In this document: in pieces, positions 16,391 through 24,861 of the stretch | Layout of the letters: each line of letters begins with the position of its first letter | How positions within the stretch are numbered: position 1 is the stretch's first letter | DNA from: Microcaldota archaeon | GTDB taxonomy: Archaea; Micrarchaeota; Micrarchaeia; Norongarragalinales; JACRGE01 | Length of the DNA: 44,252 nt | Assembly: GCA_016212465.1 (NCBI GenBank) | Contig: JACRGE010000020.1 | Span: forward strand, 1 to 44,252 | Direction: 5' to 3' | Notes under the pieces: generated by a model | Seen by the model: only the letters and a program-made list of their open reading frames with translations | Database searches by the model: none | What the model was told of the DNA's origin: nothing | Program-made: the position numbers and the translations under genes

Positions 16391-19174
16391 ATGCTTAGAC
16401 CAGAGGTTGTTAAGGCTGCGAAAATGAAGGGCTTCAAGGAATTTACTGAAATCCAACTCAAGGCGATTCCCGAGGTGTTGGCTGGGAAAAACACCTTGAT
16501 CATCGCTCCAGTCGGGTATGGAAAAACCGAGGCAGCTGTCTTGCCTGTTTTTTCAAAGATGCTGGATCTGCGAGAAAAGGGAGAAACGGCGGGTATTCAA
16601 GCCATTTATATTACTCCCCTGCGGGCGCTCAATAGGGACATGCTCTCGCGTTTAGACTTCTGGTGCAGCGAACTTGGTATCTCACTGTCCGTCAGGCACG
16701 GTGATACCCCGCAGAGCCAAAGGCGCAAGCAGAGGGACCAGCCCATGCAGTTCCTTATTACAACCCCCGAAACCCTTTGCAGCGTGTTAGTAGCTCCTGT
16801 ACTCAAAGACTCACTGAAAAACGTGAGGTTTGTCATGATCGATGAAGTGCACGAATTATTTGAGAGCAAGCGAGGAATCCAATTAAGCGTTGCACTCGAG
16901 CGTTTAAAAGAAAAAGCCATCCCCCAGATTCAAATAGTTGGTTTGAGCGCGACAGTCGGAAACGAGCGGGAAGTAGCTTCCTTTCTTTCGCGTGACGCCA
17001 ACGTCGTGAAAATAGGGTTTCGCAGAGAGCTTCAGATTTCTGTGGAGTCGCCCCCCCTGGGCAAGGAGAGCATGCCGTTCAGCATTCTCCATTTTTCTCA
17101 AGAAACCGTTGGAAAACTCCAGAGGATAACCTCTGCAGTATTGGAACACAAGAGAACACTGATTTTCGTGAACACTAGAGCAACAGCAGAGTCCCTTGCT
17201 TCCCGCTTGTTCCAGGTTCCAGAGCTGAAGGAAAAGATTGCAGTCCACCACTCCTCGCTCTCGAAGGAAGTCCGCATTGAAACCGAGGAGAGATTCAAGG
17301 CAGGGGAGTTGAAGGCAATCATCTGCACGTCTTCCCTCGAGCTCGGCATAGATATTGGGGATATTGACTTGGTTATTCAATACATGTCGCCGAGGCAGGT
17401 GACTCGTTTGATTCAACGCGTTGGACGCAGCGGCCACAGAACCCACCTCATTCCAAAAGGGATAGTGCTCTCCTCTAATCCGATGGACTGCGTTGAATCC
17501 GTTGTAATCGCTGAAAAGGCGAAGAAACACGAGTTAGAGCCCCTTGAGATCCAGAAGAACGCGCTTGATGTCTTGGCTCACCAGCTGGCAGGCATGGCGC
17601 TTGATTATGGGATAATTGAATTGGAGAAAGCGTTTCAGATGGTGAGGCGCGCTTATCCTTACGCGAATCTGCAATTCGAGGCGTTCAAGGAGGTGGCGGA
17701 ACAGCTTGCTGGCGAAGGCCTCGTCTTCGTGCGGGACAATCGGCTGACAAAAAACAGCCGCACCCTCCTCTATTATTACGAAAACATTTCCATGATTCCT
17801 GATGAAAAAAAGTTCTTCGTAAAGGATGCGGCAACAAGACGGAATGTTGGAATATTGCACGAAGGGTTTGTGAGCGAATACCTAGCTGAAGGCGTTTCAT
17901 TCATAACCCGCGGGAAACCCTGGAAGGTGTTGTCCATAGAGGAAGATCAGATTCATGTTGAGCGAACAGAAGACCTTGGGGCCGCGATTCCAGACTGGGA
18001 AGGTGAACAAATTCCAGTTACTCACGAAGTAGCTCAAGAAGTTGCCGAACTGTTTAAAGAGTCGCTTGAACTGTCAGAACCAGATTTAAAGGAAAAATAC
18101 AGTTGCAATTCCAGCGCAATAGAGCGAATCAAGGAATTTGCGCTGAAACAAACCGCTTTCTTTCTTCCTGCGCCTAAAAAAGTGTTTTTTGAGCGTCAAG
18201 GACGTTTCCTCCTCATTCACTCCTTTCTGGGAAGCAGAGAGAACGAGACGCTCTCCCGCATCCTCTCCCTCTTCCTCGCTTCAGAGCTTGGCTATCCGGT
18301 ACGCAGCCGTTCTTCGACTTACTCAATCTTGTTTGAGCTTGATAAACCATTTTCTCCAGAGCATTTCTGTAAGCTGCTAAAGGAAATGCCACCCAATAAA
18401 CTAAGGCAGATCTTAGAGCCAGTCCTTCATAACACCTCTTTGTTCAGGTATAAGTTCATAGCAGTAGGGCGGCGATTCGGTTTTCTTAGGCGAGACGTGG
18501 ATTACAAGGAAGTGAGTCTAAAGAGAATCATTGAATCCCAGAAGCACCTGCCAGTCTTCAACGAGGCATTAAACGAACTGTATCATGAGAAATTGCGTTT
18601 AAACGAGGTAAGCGATTTCCTGGAAAGGCTTGGAATGGGTGAAATCGTTTTTGAAGTAGTCGATTCCTTAAAGGGCCTTTCGCCAATCAGCAAGGATTTT
18701 CTTGAGTTCGAGGGATACTCGGAATTGTTTGCGCCTATAGAGCCCACTTCAGAGCTCATTGAAACCTTCAGAGCCAATCTCTTGGAGCGACGCGTTGAGT
18801 TGTTGTGCACCTACTGCAAGAAAACATTTACCCGCCGTATAAATGACTTTAGCCCAAAGATCTTTTGCCCATATTGCTCTTCCAATCAACTGACGTTAGC
18901 CAAGTTTAAGGAAGTATTTGAAAAGGAGGAGCGCAGGAAAGTTAGTGGATTGACTGCTGAGGAAAGAAGAAAGTACCGTGAACTGCTGCGCATCACAGCC
19001 CTCATCTCCTCTTATGGAAAACGGGCGCTCCTTGCCCTGGAAACCTATGGCGTTGGACCAGACGTAGGTGCAAGGATTCTTGCAAGAATGCACAGAACCG
19101 ACGAGGGGTTTTACAAGGATTTGCTGCAGGCGCAGAAGGATTTCATTCGTACGAGGAAATACTGGCGCGTTTAA
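16391..19174 (+). CDS. Lhr-like DEAD/DEAH helicase with C4 zinc module
   Basis: APVGYGKTEAAVLPVFS (Walker A), MIDEVHELF (DEVH box), QRVGRSGHRTHLIPKGIVLSS, CTYCKKTFTRRINDFSPKIFCPYC. Confidence 0.9.
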   Translation: MLRPEVVKAAKMKGFKEFTEIQLKAIPEVLAGKNTLIIAPVGYGKTEAAVLPVFSKMLDLREKGETAGIQAIYITPLRALNRDMLSRLDFWCSELGISLSVRHGDTPQSQRRKQRDQPMQFLITTPETLCSVLVAPVLKDSLKNVRFVMIDEVHELFESKRGIQLSVALERLKEKAIPQIQIVGLSATVGNEREVASFLSRDANVVKIGFRRELQISVESPPLGKESMPFSILHFSQETVGKLQRITSAVLEHKRTLIFVNTRATAESLASRLFQVPELKEKIAVHHSSLSKEVRIETEERFKAGELKAIICTSSLELGIDIGDIDLVIQYMSPRQVTRLIQRVGRSGHRTHLIPKGIVLSSNPMDCVESVVIAEKAKKHELEPLEIQKNALDVLAHQLAGMALDYGIIELEKAFQMVRRAYPYANLQFEAFKEVAEQLAGEGLVFVRDNRLTKNSRTLLYYYENISMIPDEKKFFVKDAATRRNVGILHEGFVSEYLAEGVSFITRGKPWKVLSIEEDQIHVERTEDLGAAIPDWEGEQIPVTHEVAQEVAELFKESLELSEPDLKEKYSCNSSAIERIKEFALKQTAFFLPAPKKVFFERQGRFLLIHSFLGSRENETLSRILSLFLASELGYPVRSRSSTYSILFELDKPFSPEHFCKLLKEMPPNKLRQILEPVLHNTSLFRYKFIAVGRRFGFLRRDVDYKEVSLKRIIESQKHLPVFNEALNELYHEKLRLNEVSDFLERLGMGEIVFEVVDSLKGLSPISKDFLEFEGYSELFAPIEPTSELIETFRANLLERRVELLCTYCKKTFTRRINDFSPKIFCPYCSSNQLTLAKFKEVFEKEERRKVSGLTAEERRKYRELLRITALISSYGKRALLALETYGVGPDVGARILARMHRTDEGFYKDLLQAQKDFIRTRKYWRV

Positions 19175-19344
19175 TCCGGTTCCTTCAACCCAAGGATTCT
19201 TTTAATTTTCTCCGTCAATCCTTTCTTTCTTTTTTTCTTTTCTGGCTCGAAGATTTCAATGAAATTGAATTCCGTTTCCGAAGGAGGCTTGCGCTCCTCG
19301 AACTGTTTCTCCTTCACTTCCAGCACGCGCGGTCTTTGATTCAT
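19171..19344 (-). CDS. Small protein in the Ubl operon: N-terminal PRVLEVKEK, C-terminal amphipathic basic helix
   Basis: MNQRPRVLEVKEKQFEERKPPSETEFNFIEIFEPEKKKRKKGLTEKIKRILGLKEPD; ATGA overlap with the preceding gene. Confidence 0.65.
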   Translation of the reverse strand: MNQRPRVLEVKEKQFEERKPPSETEFNFIEIFEPEKKKRKKGLTEKIKRILGLKEPD

Positions 19345-20009
19345 TTTTTCTCTTCTCTTTCGTCCATCCATATCGGAAGGATTTGTTGAACAATGCACTC
19401 TGCTAGTGTTTTGAGCATGAGTTCACCCATCAAACCCGCTTGTTTTGAAGCCTTTAAGTCTGCAGGGCGCAAACGACCAAGAAGCTTCTGAGCGCGTTCA
19501 TTCGAAATACCCCCAAAAGCTTCACGGATCTCTTGCTGTTTCCTTGCCAAAAGAGTCCCCCGCGAAGGGTCTTTGTAAATCACAGGTATTTCAATAGCAT
19601 ACTGGGGCCTGAAGGAAGGCGGGTATTTTATAGCATATGGGTCCGAAACGATATAATCATTGGGAAACTTAAGTTGATCGTGATCTTTTAGTGTAAAGGA
19701 AAATTTATTTGGTTTGCCCCCCTCTTTTGGTTTGAAACCGCAGTTGTGCAACGCAATAATTAACGCACCAGGATTTTCTTTGTGTAGCCTGCTAACCCAT
19801 CCCTTTTCTTCCTCTGACTGCCCTTCCATCCTCAAGAGTTTTTCAGGGGGGGCGTTCAAGAGGCGATAAAATAGTCCATATTCCCTCGGCAATTGCCTTA
19901 CTTGCACCTTATGGCCCCTTGACTGAAGTTCTCTGACCAAACGTCTGCCGAACAACGTTGCGCTCACTTCATTGGCGTGGGTTTTCGTAACCAAAATTAT
20001 TTTTGACAT
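19341..20009 (-). CDS. Putative zinc hydrolase resembling aspartoacylase/succinylglutamate desuccinylase (M14-like), copy 1
   Basis: KTHANEVSATLFGRRLVREL (HxxE), ALIIALHNCGF (third ligand His), YAIEIPVIY (Glu); starts 1 nt after the E2 stop. Confidence 0.55.
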   Translation of the reverse strand: MSKIILVTKTHANEVSATLFGRRLVRELQSRGHKVQVRQLPREYGLFYRLLNAPPEKLLRMEGQSEEEKGWVSRLHKENPGALIIALHNCGFKPKEGGKPNKFSFTLKDHDQLKFPNDYIVSDPYAIKYPPSFRPQYAIEIPVIYKDPSRGTLLARKQQEIREAFGGISNERAQKLLGRLRPADLKASKQAGLMGELMLKTLAECIVQQILPIWMDEREEKK

Positions 20010-20010
20010 T

Positions 20011-20472
20011 TCACACAATCCTAGGCTTTCTTTCAATTGATTTAGGCGTGCCTTTTTCCAGAGAAATGAAATATTCCGCCGCTTCCTTGTTTAAAGGATC
20101 CTTTGGGTTCGGGTTTTCGAGCAGCTGCTTCAAACCATCCGCAATGTTCTTGACGGAAACGGAAGGAGACCATAACTTAAGGAGTTGAATGCACACGAGC
20201 CCTTCCTTGGAAATGTTGGGATGAAAAATAGGGGTGGTCCAATAGACTTCAACGCCCCCAGCATAAGGAAATTCTCTCCTCAAGAGGATTCTTACCTCAT
20301 GCGTAAATCTTTTTTTTATTTCGTTGCCAGAGTTTTCAACCCCTTCTCCAACAAACCTTAGCCTATAATCCGTTTTTTCCTCGTTTACATTAAATGCTAC
20401 GCCGGATTTTTTCATTTCATCAAATTCGCTTTCCAATCTTCTCTTCCAAATCACCTCTGGGAGTTGGGGCAT
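20011..20472 (-). CDS. E2 ubiquitin-conjugating-like enzyme
   Basis: TTPIFHPNISKEGLVCIQLLKLWSPSVSVKNIADGLKQLLENPNPKDPLNKEAAEYF: HPN tripeptide, catalytic Cys 8 residues later, UBC fold pattern. Confidence 0.92.
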   Translation of the reverse strand: MPQLPEVIWKRRLESEFDEMKKSGVAFNVNEEKTDYRLRFVGEGVENSGNEIKKRFTHEVRILLRREFPYAGGVEVYWTTPIFHPNISKEGLVCIQLLKLWSPSVSVKNIADGLKQLLENPNPKDPLNKEAAEYFISLEKGTPKSIERKPRIV

Positions 20473-20473
20473 T

Positions 20474-20761
20474 TCATTCCCTCGCAATATTGGAAAAATT
20501 ACCCCCCGTTGGGTCGGGCATAAGCAAAAGAGTGTCGCCTTCCTTTAGCCCCGCGTCGCCGACTGTGAGTTCCGGGTTTAGAATCTTCTTATCCTGGGTT
20601 GCAAGCACGTGGCGGTCTTTTAGTTGCAGGCTTTCAGCCACGACTTCCAAAACAGCGCTTATCGTAAACGCGTTTTCTACTGCCACCACGATTTCCTTTC
20701 CTGAAGTAGCGTGGGAAACTATGACCGTGAACTCTCCTTCCTCCATCGCATCACCCCACAT
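20474..20761 (-). CDS. Ubiquitin-like modifier precursor (beta-grasp, internal Gly-Gly)
   Basis: FTVIVSHATSGKEIVVAVENAFTISAVLEVVAESLQLKDRHVLATQDKKILNPELTVGDAGLKEGDTLLLMPDPTGGNFSNIARE. Met at 20746 may be the true start. Confidence 0.88.
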   Translation of the reverse strand: MWGDAMEEGEFTVIVSHATSGKEIVVAVENAFTISAVLEVVAESLQLKDRHVLATQDKKILNPELTVGDAGLKEGDTLLLMPDPTGGNFSNIARE

Positions 20762-20824
20762 AATACTCCTAAAAAATTATTATAACTGCTGTTGAGTATA
20801 TCTATTGGCTGCAGTGGTGGTTCA

Positions 20825-21235
20825 GTGGGAGACAAGCCGAGGGTCGTAGAGTTGCGTGAAAAGAAGAAGGAAGAACCGCAGGAATCCCCTAGTGCACCAG
20901 TTGAAGAAAAACTAGAGGAAACACAAGCTCCAGAAGTCCCACCTCCGCCTCAAGAAAAACAAGAGCCACCCAAAAAACCAAAGGTACTCGAGGAACGGGA
21001 AGTTGTAGACTACTCTCTCTTGTTGCCAAAGGGGATTCATGAAGAGCCAGATATAGTTAGGAAGAAGAGGGAACAGGCATCGAAAGACGTTCTCCCCCTT
21101 CAAAGGAAGGAGTGGACTCCCAAAGAAATCGAGGATGCAAAAGAACTTGCTAAAAAGATTCATGCTGAAAAAGAAGAGAAAATGAATCCGCTGGAAAAAA
21201 TTGGAAGAAGAATAAAAGCATTTTTCAAAAGTTGA
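20825..21235 (+). CDS. Small charged protein in the Ubl locus sharing motifs with the 19171-19344 product
   Basis: GTG start candidate: VGDKPRVVELREKKKEEPQ...EEKMNPLEKIGRRIKAFFKS. Confidence 0.6.
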   Translation: MGDKPRVVELREKKKEEPQESPSAPVEEKLEETQAPEVPPPPQEKQEPPKKPKVLEEREVVDYSLLLPKGIHEEPDIVRKKREQASKDVLPLQRKEWTPKEIEDAKELAKKIHAEKEEKMNPLEKIGRRIKAFFKS

Positions 21236-21256
21236 TTTTGTTTCTTGGGCGACTGC

Positions 21257-21721
21257 ATGTACGACGTTTATTTGGCCAAGGCGGCTATTGAAAAAGCTGA
21301 CGCGCATAGTTTGAGGATGGCGGAAAAAAATTTGGAGGCCCTGGGTTTGTTGGTTGGTGATGCATTCCACTTTGAGGACCGGCAATGGGTCTTGGTAGAG
21401 GATTACCTGACTGCCCCAAACATCTCTTCTCCCGTTTCAGTCAGGTTCACTGAAGAGGCGCTTGCCGAGATAGCTGCCGATATAAGCAATAGGAAAGCAG
21501 GTAAGTTGATTGTGGGATGGTGCCATTCTCATCCAGGATATGGTTGTTTTCTCTCGTTACAGGACCTAGAAACCCAGCAAAAGTATTTTCCAGAGGAATT
21601 CCACATTGCAATGGTCATTGATCCAACCGGATGCGCAGGCAATAAATCACTTAAAAGAATATTCCGTTTAAAGAACGGTGGTTGTCACGAGGTTTCGTTT
21701 GCTGTATTTACAGAGAAGTGA
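21257..21721 (+). CDS. JAMM/MPN metalloprotease, Rpn11-like
   Basis: GWCHSHPGYGCFLSLQDLETQQKYF matches HxHx7Sx2D and the Rpn11 context. Confidence 0.92.
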   Translation: MYDVYLAKAAIEKADAHSLRMAEKNLEALGLLVGDAFHFEDRQWVLVEDYLTAPNISSPVSVRFTEEALAEIAADISNRKAGKLIVGWCHSHPGYGCFLSLQDLETQQKYFPEEFHIAMVIDPTGCAGNKSLKRIFRLKNGGCHEVSFAVFTEK

Positions 21722-22605
21722 TGGAAATGGAAGCTCCACAGCACAACGAGGTTAAACCCATTGGCGAAGCCATTTCAAAAAGTGAAGAAACAAGGTCGGA
21801 AAAAAAGAAGAAAACCAGAGTAGTTGCTCGGGCCAGGAAAAAAGGCGCGAGGATGCGCTTGGACCGCTTCGACAAAGACCTTCTTCACGCACTCTACACT
21901 GGAGAAAAGAATGCTCTGAAGATAGCTGAATGGATGAACGTTGATTTGGCGGAATTCAAGGAGAGGGTTAAAAAACTCATAAACAGAAAGCTCCTTGTTG
22001 AGGACGCCTCAGACTCAACTGTAATCCGGCTTGGGGTCAAGGGATACGATTTTTGTGTGTTAACGTTCAAGAAAAGAGATGAAAAAGCAGGTGCGAGGAC
22101 AGAAGAGGGACGCCAGAAAACACTTGATGTAGTGGCGGAACTCAAAGAAGGAAAGCTAGTTGAAAAAGAACCGGGTCCTGCAGAAACAGGGGTTCAGGAG
22201 GCAGCAAAAGAAACTCGTGAGGTGGCACAGTCTCAAGAGACGAAGGACAGAATAGACGTATTTGAGGCGTTTGAGAAATACGGCCCAAAAGAAACGAAGG
22301 AAACGCCTAAGAAGCAAGAACAAAAACAACCAGAACCGCCCCCGAGTGTTGAGCTCATGAAACCGCTTGTGGTGGATGGAAAGGAAAAATGCGAGTTATG
22401 CAAGACGGAATTCAAGACAACAGTTGGACGGGCCAGTAACCCTAAATACGGCCATTGCTTTTGTGGAGCGGCTTATCACCGGGACTGCTATGAGGCATCG
22501 CTTGATAGTGGAGGTTATTGCGTGCGCTGCGGGAAGAAACTAAAACTGCTTTTAAACAAACAAAGCGAGGAAGCGGTGAAAGACATAAAGCCTCTCTTCG
22601 ATTAA
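21721..22605 (+). CDS. Winged-helix plus RING-like zinc domain protein (putative E3)
   Basis: wHTH-like RFDKDLLHALYTGEKNALKIAEWMNVDLAEFKERVKKLINRKLLVE; C-terminal C-x2-C-x18-C-x-C-x4-H-x2-C-x10-C-x2-C; start overlaps the JAMM stop. Confidence 0.75.
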   Translation: MEMEAPQHNEVKPIGEAISKSEETRSEKKKKTRVVARARKKGARMRLDRFDKDLLHALYTGEKNALKIAEWMNVDLAEFKERVKKLINRKLLVEDASDSTVIRLGVKGYDFCVLTFKKRDEKAGARTEEGRQKTLDVVAELKEGKLVEKEPGPAETGVQEAAKETREVAQSQETKDRIDVFEAFEKYGPKETKETPKKQEQKQPEPPPSVELMKPLVVDGKEKCELCKTEFKTTVGRASNPKYGHCFCGAAYHRDCYEASLDSGGYCVRCGKKLKLLLNKQSEEAVKDIKPLFD

Positions 22606-22624
22606 AGCCAGTACTGAATGAGAA

Positions 22625-23236
22625 TTATGCGGGGCAGATTTCAGCAATCTTTTCAGCAAACGCCTTCAATTCGTTGTAAGATATTCGTTTGCTGTCTATC
22701 TCTGTTATGAGGAAGATCATTGCGCTGTCGCAAGGCACGTTCAGTTTCGTGGATTCTGCCGGCGTATCTTCCTCTTCTTTGGAGTAGAATGCTTGCCTTC
22801 CATCAATCTCCAACACGTAACTGCTTGGGAAAATGGCGCCCAAGGACTGTCCCTCGTCTTCTGTAGCTTTTCTTAACGTGAACTTGTAGCTTACGTGCGT
22901 AAGGTTTTCTACCGTGCTAGTCTCCCCCTCATAATACGTTACATATGACGGACTTGTGAATGAAACCTTTTGAAAGACTACTCTATTTTTAAAAACATTT
23001 GCAAAATATTCGTTTACTGTGCGTTCAAACCGTTCCTTGATACCCCCCAAGCCTGCTTCTGTAGTAGTGCTCGTAACAACTTCGGTGGTGGTCGTAGTCT
23101 GTTGGATTGTTGTTGTAGTCAGAATTTCAGTTGTAGTTGTAAATACGGTCGTGGACGTCTGCATCCTCTCGGGTTGTTTCAAGCAACCAAACAGCAACAA
23201 ACTCAAAACCAGGATTCCAAGGAATACTCTCTTCAT
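22625..23236 (-). CDS. Lipoprotein with Thr-rich linker
   Basis: MKRVFLGILVLSLLLFGC lipobox followed by TSTTVFTTTTEILTTTTIQQTTTTTEVVTSTTTE. Confidence 0.75.
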   Translation of the reverse strand: MKRVFLGILVLSLLLFGCLKQPERMQTSTTVFTTTTEILTTTTIQQTTTTTEVVTSTTTEAGLGGIKERFERTVNEYFANVFKNRVVFQKVSFTSPSYVTYYEGETSTVENLTHVSYKFTLRKATEDEGQSLGAIFPSSYVLEIDGRQAFYSKEEEDTPAESTKLNVPCDSAMIFLITEIDSKRISYNELKAFAEKIAEICPA

Positions 23237-23440
23237 TTTCCCGCCCCATTCATCTTTACTTCTATCTTCTTAATAAATATTTTCTACTGGGCTAGGGCGT
23301 CTAATAATTCATCAGATCCCATACTGTTGATTTACGCGCACGTTGGAGATTTTTTGTTTAACTCGTAGGCTTACAACCTCAAACTAAAACAACAAAGCCA
23401 AAGGTGCAAGAAAAACCCATTTACTATACAACCCCCCAGG

Positions 23441-24205
23441 CTATAAATGGACTGGGCAGCCCCTTCTCTTGATCACCTCATAGACTCTAAACTCTTCAGT
23501 CGAGCCGTTGTAGAATAAGTATCGTCCTACCAGCGTGTTTTTTTCAGGCATTCCCAAAGCAAGCTTTACAAACTCGTTTGCTTGGACCCCTGCGATTACG
23601 TTGTTCGTGGTTGAAAGAGCGGGCGTCTTTGGGTCTAGGAAATCAAGGGGTTCACCTTTGCAGGAGTATTTCTTCCACATTCCCTTGTAGTCTTCTTCGC
23701 TTACAGAACATTCAATGCAAGAAGAAGGCGCTTTCGTCACCTGAACTTTTCCCATCAAGCCATTTATGCCTGCGTCGATGAGGGCGGCTTTGGCGTAGCA
23801 GTGTGCGTTCAAGTGAAGCCTAGCACCCAAGCTGTCAAGGCAACTGAATGCAAAGCCGAATCCTTCATAAAATTCTTCAGGTAGTTCCTCAATTTTTTTC
23901 AAGATTGGTGCAATTGTTGCTCGAGGGTTTATCAAGACTGCCTTTTCAGCGATCACTTCCGCCTTCGTTTTTCCTACGTCACTCGCCTCGAAGAAAATGC
24001 ACCTGTTCAGGTTCGCCGCCTCAACTGAATCGAAGTCCACTAACGTGATGTTGTTGACGCCCGCCTGCAGCAACAGTTTTACTACTTCGTTCCCTAAGGC
24101 GCCTGCTCCGACTACTAGAACCCGTTGCTCACTGATTCTTTCTTGGTTCCAACCAGTAATTCTCTTCTGCCTATCGTAAACCTCTTCGTTCAACCTTGAA
24201 ATCAT
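23441..24205 (-). CDS. E1-like ubiquitin-activating enzyme (ThiF/MoeB/UBA family)
   Basis: VLVVGAGALGNEVVKLLLQAGVNNITLVDFDSVEAANLNRCIFFEASDVGKTKAEV; SCLDSLGARLHLN. Confidence 0.92.
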   Translation of the reverse strand: MISRLNEEVYDRQKRITGWNQERISEQRVLVVGAGALGNEVVKLLLQAGVNNITLVDFDSVEAANLNRCIFFEASDVGKTKAEVIAEKAVLINPRATIAPILKKIEELPEEFYEGFGFAFSCLDSLGARLHLNAHCYAKAALIDAGINGLMGKVQVTKAPSSCIECSVSEEDYKGMWKKYSCKGEPLDFLDPKTPALSTTNNVIAGVQANEFVKLALGMPEKNTLVGRYLFYNGSTEEFRVYEVIKRRGCPVHL

Positions 24206-24861
24206 TTTCTCCTCCCTTTCAAAAACTTTGGCAAAATATCTTCGTGAATGCCTTCTACAATCGCTTCCTCCATCTTCTCACCCATCAAACCTGCCTCCCG
24301 ACTAGCTTTTATGTCAACCGTTTTCAAATATTCATCAAGTAACGCTTCGGTCTCAATTCTTTCAAAGGAACGAAACCTTGATTTCAATGCCTCAAACAAT
24401 GTCCTTCTTTTCTCTTCAAGTCGTGTAGGAATCCTGTATACTGCAGGAATTTCTATATTTGCATGCACTTCGCCGCGTATTTCTGGTACTCCAAGAAGCC
24501 ACGCGGGGTTTTTTCCAGCTATTGCAGCTATTGTATCGCCTTTCTGTAGTTTTATTTTTCCACCCAGTTTTTCACTTGGTTCAGGAACATAAACAAAATT
24601 GTGGATGCCAATAACAATTGCATCAGGATTATCTTTTTTGATTTTTTCAAACCAATTTCTTTCTCTTTGTGATATATACTTAACATAAGGCCGCCTTGGA
24701 GTTGCAGAAAGCAATCTCTTTAAAACGCTGTGTCTGTAAGGAAATGTTTTAAGTTCAACCTCGTGCCCCCGCTTCTCAAGTCCAGCCACAATCCCCTTGG
24801 AGGATATTGTTGCGCTGGCTTCATTCGGGTGGTTTTTTCGAACGAGGATTATCTTCGCCAT
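24202..24861 (-). CDS. Putative zinc hydrolase resembling aspartoacylase/succinylglutamate desuccinylase, copy 2
   Basis: MAKIILVRKNHPNEASATISS..., AIVIGIHNFVYVP, ANIEIPAVY, DIKASREAGLMGEKM; paralog of 19341-20009; overlaps the E1 start. Confidence 0.55.
   Translation of the reverse strand: MAKIILVRKNHPNEASATISSKGIVAGLEKRGHEVELKTFPYRHSVLKRLLSATPRRPYVKYISQRERNWFEKIKKDNPDAIVIGIHNFVYVPEPSEKLGGKIKLQKGDTIAAIAGKNPAWLLGVPEIRGEVHANIEIPAVYRIPTRLEEKRRTLFEALKSRFRSFERIETEALLDEYLKTVDIKASREAGLMGEKMEEAIVEGIHEDILPKFLKGRRK

Follow-up and report, generated by a model that had tools for sequence, protein, structure and literature searches.

Does the gene set between positions 19171 and 24861 of contig JACRGE010000020.1 (assembly GCA_016212465.1) constitute a complete ubiquitin conjugation system of the eukaryotic type, and which of its genes belong to that system? 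The contig, 44,252 nucleotides in length and referred to below as the window, stems from an archaeal genome of 1.2 Mb (91% complete) in the phylum Micrarchaeota, order Norongarragalinales. The locus encodes a ubiquitin-like modifier (Ubl) with a Gly-Gly motif, an E1, an E2, a protein with a winged helix and a zinc finger, and an Rpn11-like JAMM protein (Table 1). Very probably, these genes form a genuine ubiquitin cascade of the order, of which the small protein s75 is an integral component. A complete E1/E2/JAMM ubiquitin system is of an already known archaeal kind; its order-wide occurrence in Micrarchaeota is new as far as the literature searched shows, and so is s75. In that literature, which excludes most subscription journals, ubiquitin is mentioned for Micrarchaeota neither in PMC8561730 and PMC12892359 nor in the title or abstract of any paper containing both terms, and no earlier description of the sequence module that characterizes s75 was found.

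The conjugation components were recognized by sequence and, for the Ubl and E2 of a relative, by predicted fold. The E2 matches Pfam family UQ_con (2.6e-18), and its HPN motif, catalytic Cys and loop-4 Pro-Tyr are invariant in 26/26 homologues. The E1 matches Pfam family ThiF (1.5e-49) over residues 16–251, leaving no C-terminal ubiquitin-like domain, and because this match fills nearly all of its 254 residues it cannot be filed under the Caldiarchaeum-type E1. Invariant in 20 E1 sequences are the GxGALGNE core, D57xD59, NLNR, K81, D124 and Cys182. Searches of the PDB with profiles built from 20–26 homologues identified human UBE2H (1e-18) and also UBE2A for the E2, ubiquitin for the Ubl, and yeast Uba1 (6e-35) for the E1, with Uba1, UBA3 and SAE2 ranking above MoeB and ThiF. 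The Gly-Gly motif is present in all 24 Ubl homologues, 18 of which stop exactly at TGG. A tail beyond Gly-Gly occurs in six genomes, including that of the window, which argues that removal of such a tail is not the main task of the JAMM protein across the order. The Ubl and E2 of Candidatus Norongarragalina meridionalis (locus L041) were modelled as one chain, the stop between them being read through (mean predicted local distance difference test score, pLDDT, 89.5). The Ubl part displays a beta-grasp fold (Z 13.6 to ubiquitin, root-mean-square deviation 2.3 over 76 residues, 28% identity) and the E2 part a UBC fold (Z 14.0–14.1 to UBE2H/UBE2S).

The JAMM protein matches Pfam family JAB (3.2e-9), and its putative metal ligands (E, HxH and D) are invariant in 23/23 sequences. 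Its best relatives in the PDB are Rpn11 proteins, namely those of yeast (3.3e-22) and Caldiarchaeum subterraneum (1.7e-19), and CSN5 was also found. The protein encoded downstream has a confidently modelled winged helix (pLDDT ~96, Z 12.5 to MarR) and a less confidently modelled zinc domain (pLDDT ~70–80), with the ligand pattern C-x2-C-x18-C-x-C-x4-H-x2-C-x10-C-x2-C, all eight positions of which are invariant in 20/20 sequences. This pattern makes a RING the likely identity of the zinc domain, and an E3-like function is proposed for the protein. That these genes make up a eukaryote-like cascade of Ubl, E1, E2 and JAMM, with a RING-like protein as the candidate E3, had been suggested in a preliminary description of the window. 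Sequence comparison, folds and the conserved order of the genes now back this view, and all motifs quoted there for Ubl, E1, E2 and JAMM are present at the places given. For the RING-like protein the eight invariant ligands give support, but comparison with RING profiles yielded no significant match.

When 301 genomes from the phylum were searched, the E2 family turned up in 26 of the 29 Norongarragalinales genomes and in none of the other 272; 14 control genomes gave no match either. Three order members lack a detectable E2, two of them being only 61–62% complete (one of these still encodes the E1), and genome G300 is the sole clear absence. The E1 was found in 25 genomes of the order (E < 1e-115), and the gene order is kept across more than 20 of the 26 loci compared. 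Subunits of the 20S proteasome are encoded in all 29 genomes. The E2 is also present in Candidatus Norongarragalina meridionalis (G280; isolate LFW-144_1, contig CABMDO010000009.1), the type of the order (PMC8561730). In a quick, unrooted tree of E1, E2 and JAMM, with support by the Shimodaira–Hasegawa-like approximate likelihood ratio test (SH-aLRT) only, the Norongarragalinales group together in a single clade (SH-aLRT 99) that excludes Asgard, Thermoproteota and Thermoplasmatota. As this tree has no root, a donor of the locus cannot be named. The simplest reading is that the order's ancestor probably already possessed the locus, which has been inherited vertically since.

Two small proteins flanking these genes, s75 and sp147, are core components of the system as well. 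Neither has a family or a relative of note in Pfam and the PDB. Proteins of the s75 type have about 33–75 residues, and a profile finds exactly one copy in 26/29 genomes of the order. The protein is retained even in G273, in which s75, E1 and E2 lie 20–70 kb apart on one contig, and in G292, in which s75 and E2 are on different contigs. Its core, [KRG]-P-[RKTA]-[IVL]-[VIL]-x8-E-x2-P-P, has a fixed spacing, and s75 carries the 17-residue module P-[RK]-[IV]-[IV]-x8-E-x2-P-P (peptide RPRVLEVKEKQFEERKPP). When every open reading frame (ORF) of all loci was scanned with the strict pattern P-x-[IVLM]2-x8-E-x2-PP, Norongarragalinales gave 20 hits and Asgard 13, in each case s75 proteins, whereas the 20 hits of the Thermoplasmatota set fell without exception on N-termini of JAMM proteins. 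After shuffling, only 0–2 hits were found per whole set.

The s75 profile of the order also detects an ORF of 41–57 residues beside the E1-E2-JAMM genes in nearly all examined Asgard loci of that type; beside Asgard JAMM genes without E1/E2 (L192, L193 and L195) none was found by profile. In four Thermoproteota loci an s75-like ORF of 51–57 residues adjoins or overlaps the JAMM gene, and a fifth locus has a longer and weaker candidate. In profile–profile comparison, s75 of Norongarragalinales aligns in register with the three other groups (scores of 30–35, versus at most 13 for column shuffles), albeit with inflated similarity, since the sets outside the order were chosen by profile or regular expression; the scan of all ORFs is therefore the stronger argument. 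The module is linked to the deconjugating enzyme by its fusion to JAMM in one phylum and by co-occurrence elsewhere.

The first half of the s75 module, KPR[IV][IV] (PRIV motif), recurs within the last 5–9 residues of 25 of the 26 E2s and up to twice per sp147. The latter, a family defined by position, evolves fast and is encoded immediately upstream of JAMM in practically every one of the 23 loci that carry a JAMM gene. Motifs of this type exceed composition shuffles more than 20-fold (27 vs 1.3 in E2, 23 vs 0.6 in s75 and 38 vs 1.4 in sp147), and none was found in Ubl, JAMM, the winged-helix/zinc protein, DTD2 or the helicase. Most Thermoproteota E2s end in RPRVIE or similar, and many Thermoplasmatota E2s in PKVVR. 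As a separate observation, a PRIV-like motif together with Y-x-L-x-P-P (RPKVLEVSAYMLPPP and NPRVVSVAEYSLRPP) opens the product of a further gene beside two Thermoproteota loci (L226, 6369–7073; L227, 7697–8431). A basic amphipathic helix, F-x2-K-[IL]-K-R-x-[FL]-G-L, furthermore forms the C-terminus of many s75 and sp147 proteins and might bind the membrane or a shared partner.

Table 1. Genes of the ubiquitin locus and its insertions, with positions in the window. The starts of s75 and of the winged-helix/zinc protein (an ATG overlapping the JAMM stop) were refined; the start of sp147 is probably a GTG.
Feature	Position	Strand	Residues	Characteristics
s75 microprotein	19171–19344	minus	57	MNQRPRVLEVKEKQFEERKPP... 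then basic C-terminal helix
hydA	19341–20006	minus		HxxE...H protein between E2 and s75; lineage-specific, outside core
E2	20011–20472	minus	153	HPN84–86, catalytic Cys94 eight residues on, C-terminal tail KPRIV
Ubl modifier	20474–20746	minus	90	...PDPTGG (Gly81-Gly82), then 8-residue tail NFSNIARE
sp147	20825–21235	plus	136	disordered; PRIV motifs KPRVVELRE and KPKVLEERE, EQASKDVLP motif, amphipathic basic C-terminal helix
Rpn11-like JAMM isopeptidase (predicted)	21257–21721	plus	154	Glu27, H90-x-H92, D103; H90SHPGYGCFLSLQD103
Winged-helix/zinc protein, candidate E3	21721–22605	plus	294	winged helix ~45–118, disordered linker, C-terminal zinc domain
Mucin-like lipoprotein	22625–23236	minus		at the locus in 1/26, that of the window; outside core
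E1	23441–24205	minus	254	single ThiF domain; GAGALGNE, NLNR, catalytic Cys182 (YSC), zinc ligands C163/C166/C250/H253
hydB	24202–24861	minus		hydA paralogue upstream of E1; outside core

The locus consists of a minus-strand block (19171–20746) with Ubl, E2, hydA and s75, and of a plus-strand block, divergent from Ubl, with sp147, JAMM and the winged-helix/zinc protein, followed on the minus strand by the lipoprotein, E1 and hydB genes. The hydA/hydB family is confined to this order, occurring in 11 of the 301 genomes and for the most part at a distance from the ubiquitin locus; the host genome has four copies (in the window and at G000:C68 and C69). Members lie beside ubiquitin genes in only 3 of the 26 loci, and since the lipoprotein too is rare there, all three genes are regarded as insertions, contrary to the preliminary description, which had spoken of extra partners, the hydrolases, in a locus split around the lipoprotein gene. 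It had noticed the small flanking proteins, but only in passing. A role of hydA and hydB as system partners was rejected for their restriction to the order, scattered positions and copy number. Searches of Pfam and of the PDB with profiles gave no match for their fold; the HxxE...H motif and a late invariant Glu suggest that they are possibly M14-like metallohydrolases. Genes for a helicase, DTD2 and an AAA protein are syntenic neighbours in about 15 loci, and were set aside as generic genes despite this synteny.

With the reconstituted cascade of Caldiarchaeum (PMC5654768) as precedent, the E1 would adenylate the Ubl at its Gly-Gly end and accept it on Cys182, from which it would pass to Cys94 of the E2, activities that are predicted here by homology. 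The winged-helix/zinc protein would act as an E3-like adaptor, whereas the JAMM protein would remove the Ubl again and trim the short tail where one is present. Tagged proteins would probably be delivered to the 20S proteasome. The SUMO-interacting motifs and UBA5-type Ubl-interacting peptides of eukaryotes consist of a short aliphatic strand with charged flanks, and the s75 module is likened to them by resemblance alone. We propose that the aliphatic strand in s75, the E2 tail and sp147 may add to the Ubl in the manner of SUMO-interacting motifs, which pair with the beta-2/alpha-1 groove of their modifier, while the E..PP half of the module would dock on JAMM. On this view, conjugation and deconjugation would rely on one shared peptide device for holding the Ubl. 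Taken alone, this docking mechanism is a tentative proposal, on the doubtful side of plausible.

Several observations weigh against parts of this interpretation, in addition to the selection of the comparison sets mentioned above. Short motifs such as these may arise by convergence. Lokiarchaeal E2s end in DDIIIIDD, and as such Asgard tails are devoid of the P-R pair, the link to the E2 tail holds less widely than the s75 module itself. When the L041 Ubl and E2 were modelled as a read-through chain, the E2 tail was left undocked and formed no strand (pLDDT 62–65), a result that lends strand addition no structural support. As for the zinc domain, the spacing between its fourth and fifth ligands exceeds that of classical RINGs; only 2–3 of 20 members match Pfam RING families as single sequences, and weakly (E 0.002–0.05), and its identity as a RING is read from the ligand pattern together with these weak matches. 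A structure search with the winged-helix/zinc protein was dominated by the winged helix, and the weak RING matches obtained in the PDB with an approximate zinc-domain query were not used as support.

Partners other than Ubl and JAMM can be envisaged for the module. In s75 and at the N-terminus of JAMM it, or else the C-terminal amphipathic helix of many s75 and sp147 proteins, might be an adaptor that docks JAMM and its conjugates on PAN or Cdc48 and does not bind the Ubl, a role comparable to that of the lid subunits for Rpn11 in eukaryotes. Its fusion to JAMM in Thermoplasmatota and the proteasome in every genome of the order would agree with this, as would the finding that eukaryotic Rpn11 acts in the proteasome lid while archaeal Rpn11 is soluble (PMC6043591). 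Pure proteasome docking would leave the PRIV half on the E2 tail unexplained, however, and we consider such an adaptor unlikely, albeit with appreciable weight. The PRIV motif with which almost every E2 ends would instead be accounted for if the module were a peptide docking on E1 or E2, with the PRIV peptides sharing a site on the E1, and s75 and sp147 serving as competitors or scaffolds. The E1 and E2 of C. subterraneum form a stable complex (PMC5654768), and the E1 of the window, being all ThiF without a ubiquitin-fold domain, needs another device for E2 recruitment. Yet the full module, including E..PP, is fused to JAMM and not to E1 or E2, and this explanation is rather unlikely.

More fundamental doubts concern the system as such. 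The E1 has the size of MoeB/ThiF, as would be expected if the modifier served sulfur transfer or an E1-only conjugation like that of small archaeal modifier proteins (SAMP), the E2 being incidental; this is very improbable, as the Cys, HPN and loop-4 residues of the E2 are invariant in 26 sequences, and the JAMM and E1 profiles are nearest to eukaryotic Rpn11 and Uba1 rather than to MoeB. All order genomes are metagenome-assembled, which could raise the suspicion of an assembly or contamination artefact, or of a recent transfer into one genome. The probability of this is negligible, given that the E2-bearing locus occurs in 26 separate assemblies from six families of the one order, forms one clade, and lies on a contig of even composition.

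Docking on Ubl or JAMM remains our preferred role for the module, and the chance comes close to even that it is an overlooked core docking element for one of these two that already existed before these archaeal phyla diverged. If so, it may have been a precursor of the ubiquitin-interaction motifs of eukaryotes or of the accessory subunits by which Rpn11 is controlled. The present data place a complete eukaryote-like cascade throughout an order of a DPANN phylum for which the literature searched holds no earlier report, and add a hitherto unnamed component common to four archaeal groups. Since the module is so small and occupies known positions in the loci, peptides and the reconstituted Caldiarchaeum enzymes offer a way to its partner, whose identity would bear directly on the manner in which conjugation, deconjugation and degradation were linked in the earliest ubiquitin systems.

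The preliminary description held that such systems are known in few archaea, which is an understatement. A contig scan with the single E2 sequence of the window as query gave no match, but an alignment query succeeded and yielded 255 encoded E2 relatives, of which the best 80 were kept. Of the Thermoplasmatota-group loci among these, 40 encode E1, E2 and JAMM together, and nearly all also a Ubl; E1-Ubl-E2-JAMM operons are common in Thermoplasmatota. A bacterial locus (L122, 7992–10462; Anaerolineae) carries an E2 followed by two JAMM-like genes.

The ubiquitin operon of C. subterraneum encodes Ub, E1, E2, srfp and Rpn11 (PMC5654768, PMC6043591). The Norongarragalinales system shares with it a Ubl, an E1, an E2 with conserved HPN-Cys and loop-4 Pro-Tyr, a RING-type zinc protein and an Rpn11-like JAMM, and the zinc-ligand pattern of the window resembles the irregular RING with an extra Cys reported there. 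In contrast to Caldiarchaeum, the host here belongs to Micrarchaeota, the E1 is a bare ThiF domain, the gene order is divergent, and the zinc domain ends a winged-helix protein of 294 residues rather than forming a "small RING finger protein". Most Norongarragalinales Ubls, moreover, need no trimming, and there are two extra conserved disordered proteins. No E2 or RING is known from the SAMP/JAMM systems of Haloferax, whereas 26 genomes of the order have an E2. Haloferax (PMC4443979) shares a Ubl, an E1 and a JAMM, the last belonging to a more distant group.

Four Thermoproteota loci encode a natural Ubl-E2 fusion (L226, 7738–8559; L227, 6232–7050; L228, 6052–6873; L229, 6221–7051), in which ...RPVGG is followed at once by the E2, and which is presumably split by the adjoining JAMM. 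Asgard loci of the Lokiarchaeia type resemble those described here in encoding JAMM, E1, E2, Ubl and an s75-like protein, and differ in the E2 tail (DDIIIIDD instead of KPRIV) and in the position of s75, which is usually upstream of JAMM on the opposite strand; sp147 and the winged-helix/RING gene were not found nearby. In two Lokiarchaeal loci (L184, 5142–7059; L079, 5583–6518), s75 and JAMM are separated by genes whose products begin like a longin and contain a P-loop (GEEGVGKST). Two Thermoplasmatota loci contain long frames for Ubl (> 350 residues) and JAMM (629–884 residues), which are possibly polyubiquitin-like or multi-domain (L080, 6909–7979 and 8488–11142; L100, 6702–7835 and 8380–10269). 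The Thermoplasmatota operons, mostly of Methanomassiliicoccales, have the same four components in one operon, often an E2 tail PKVVR, and the s75 module; they differ in that no RING was seen nearby, and in that the module is not a separate protein but forms the N-terminus of JAMM.

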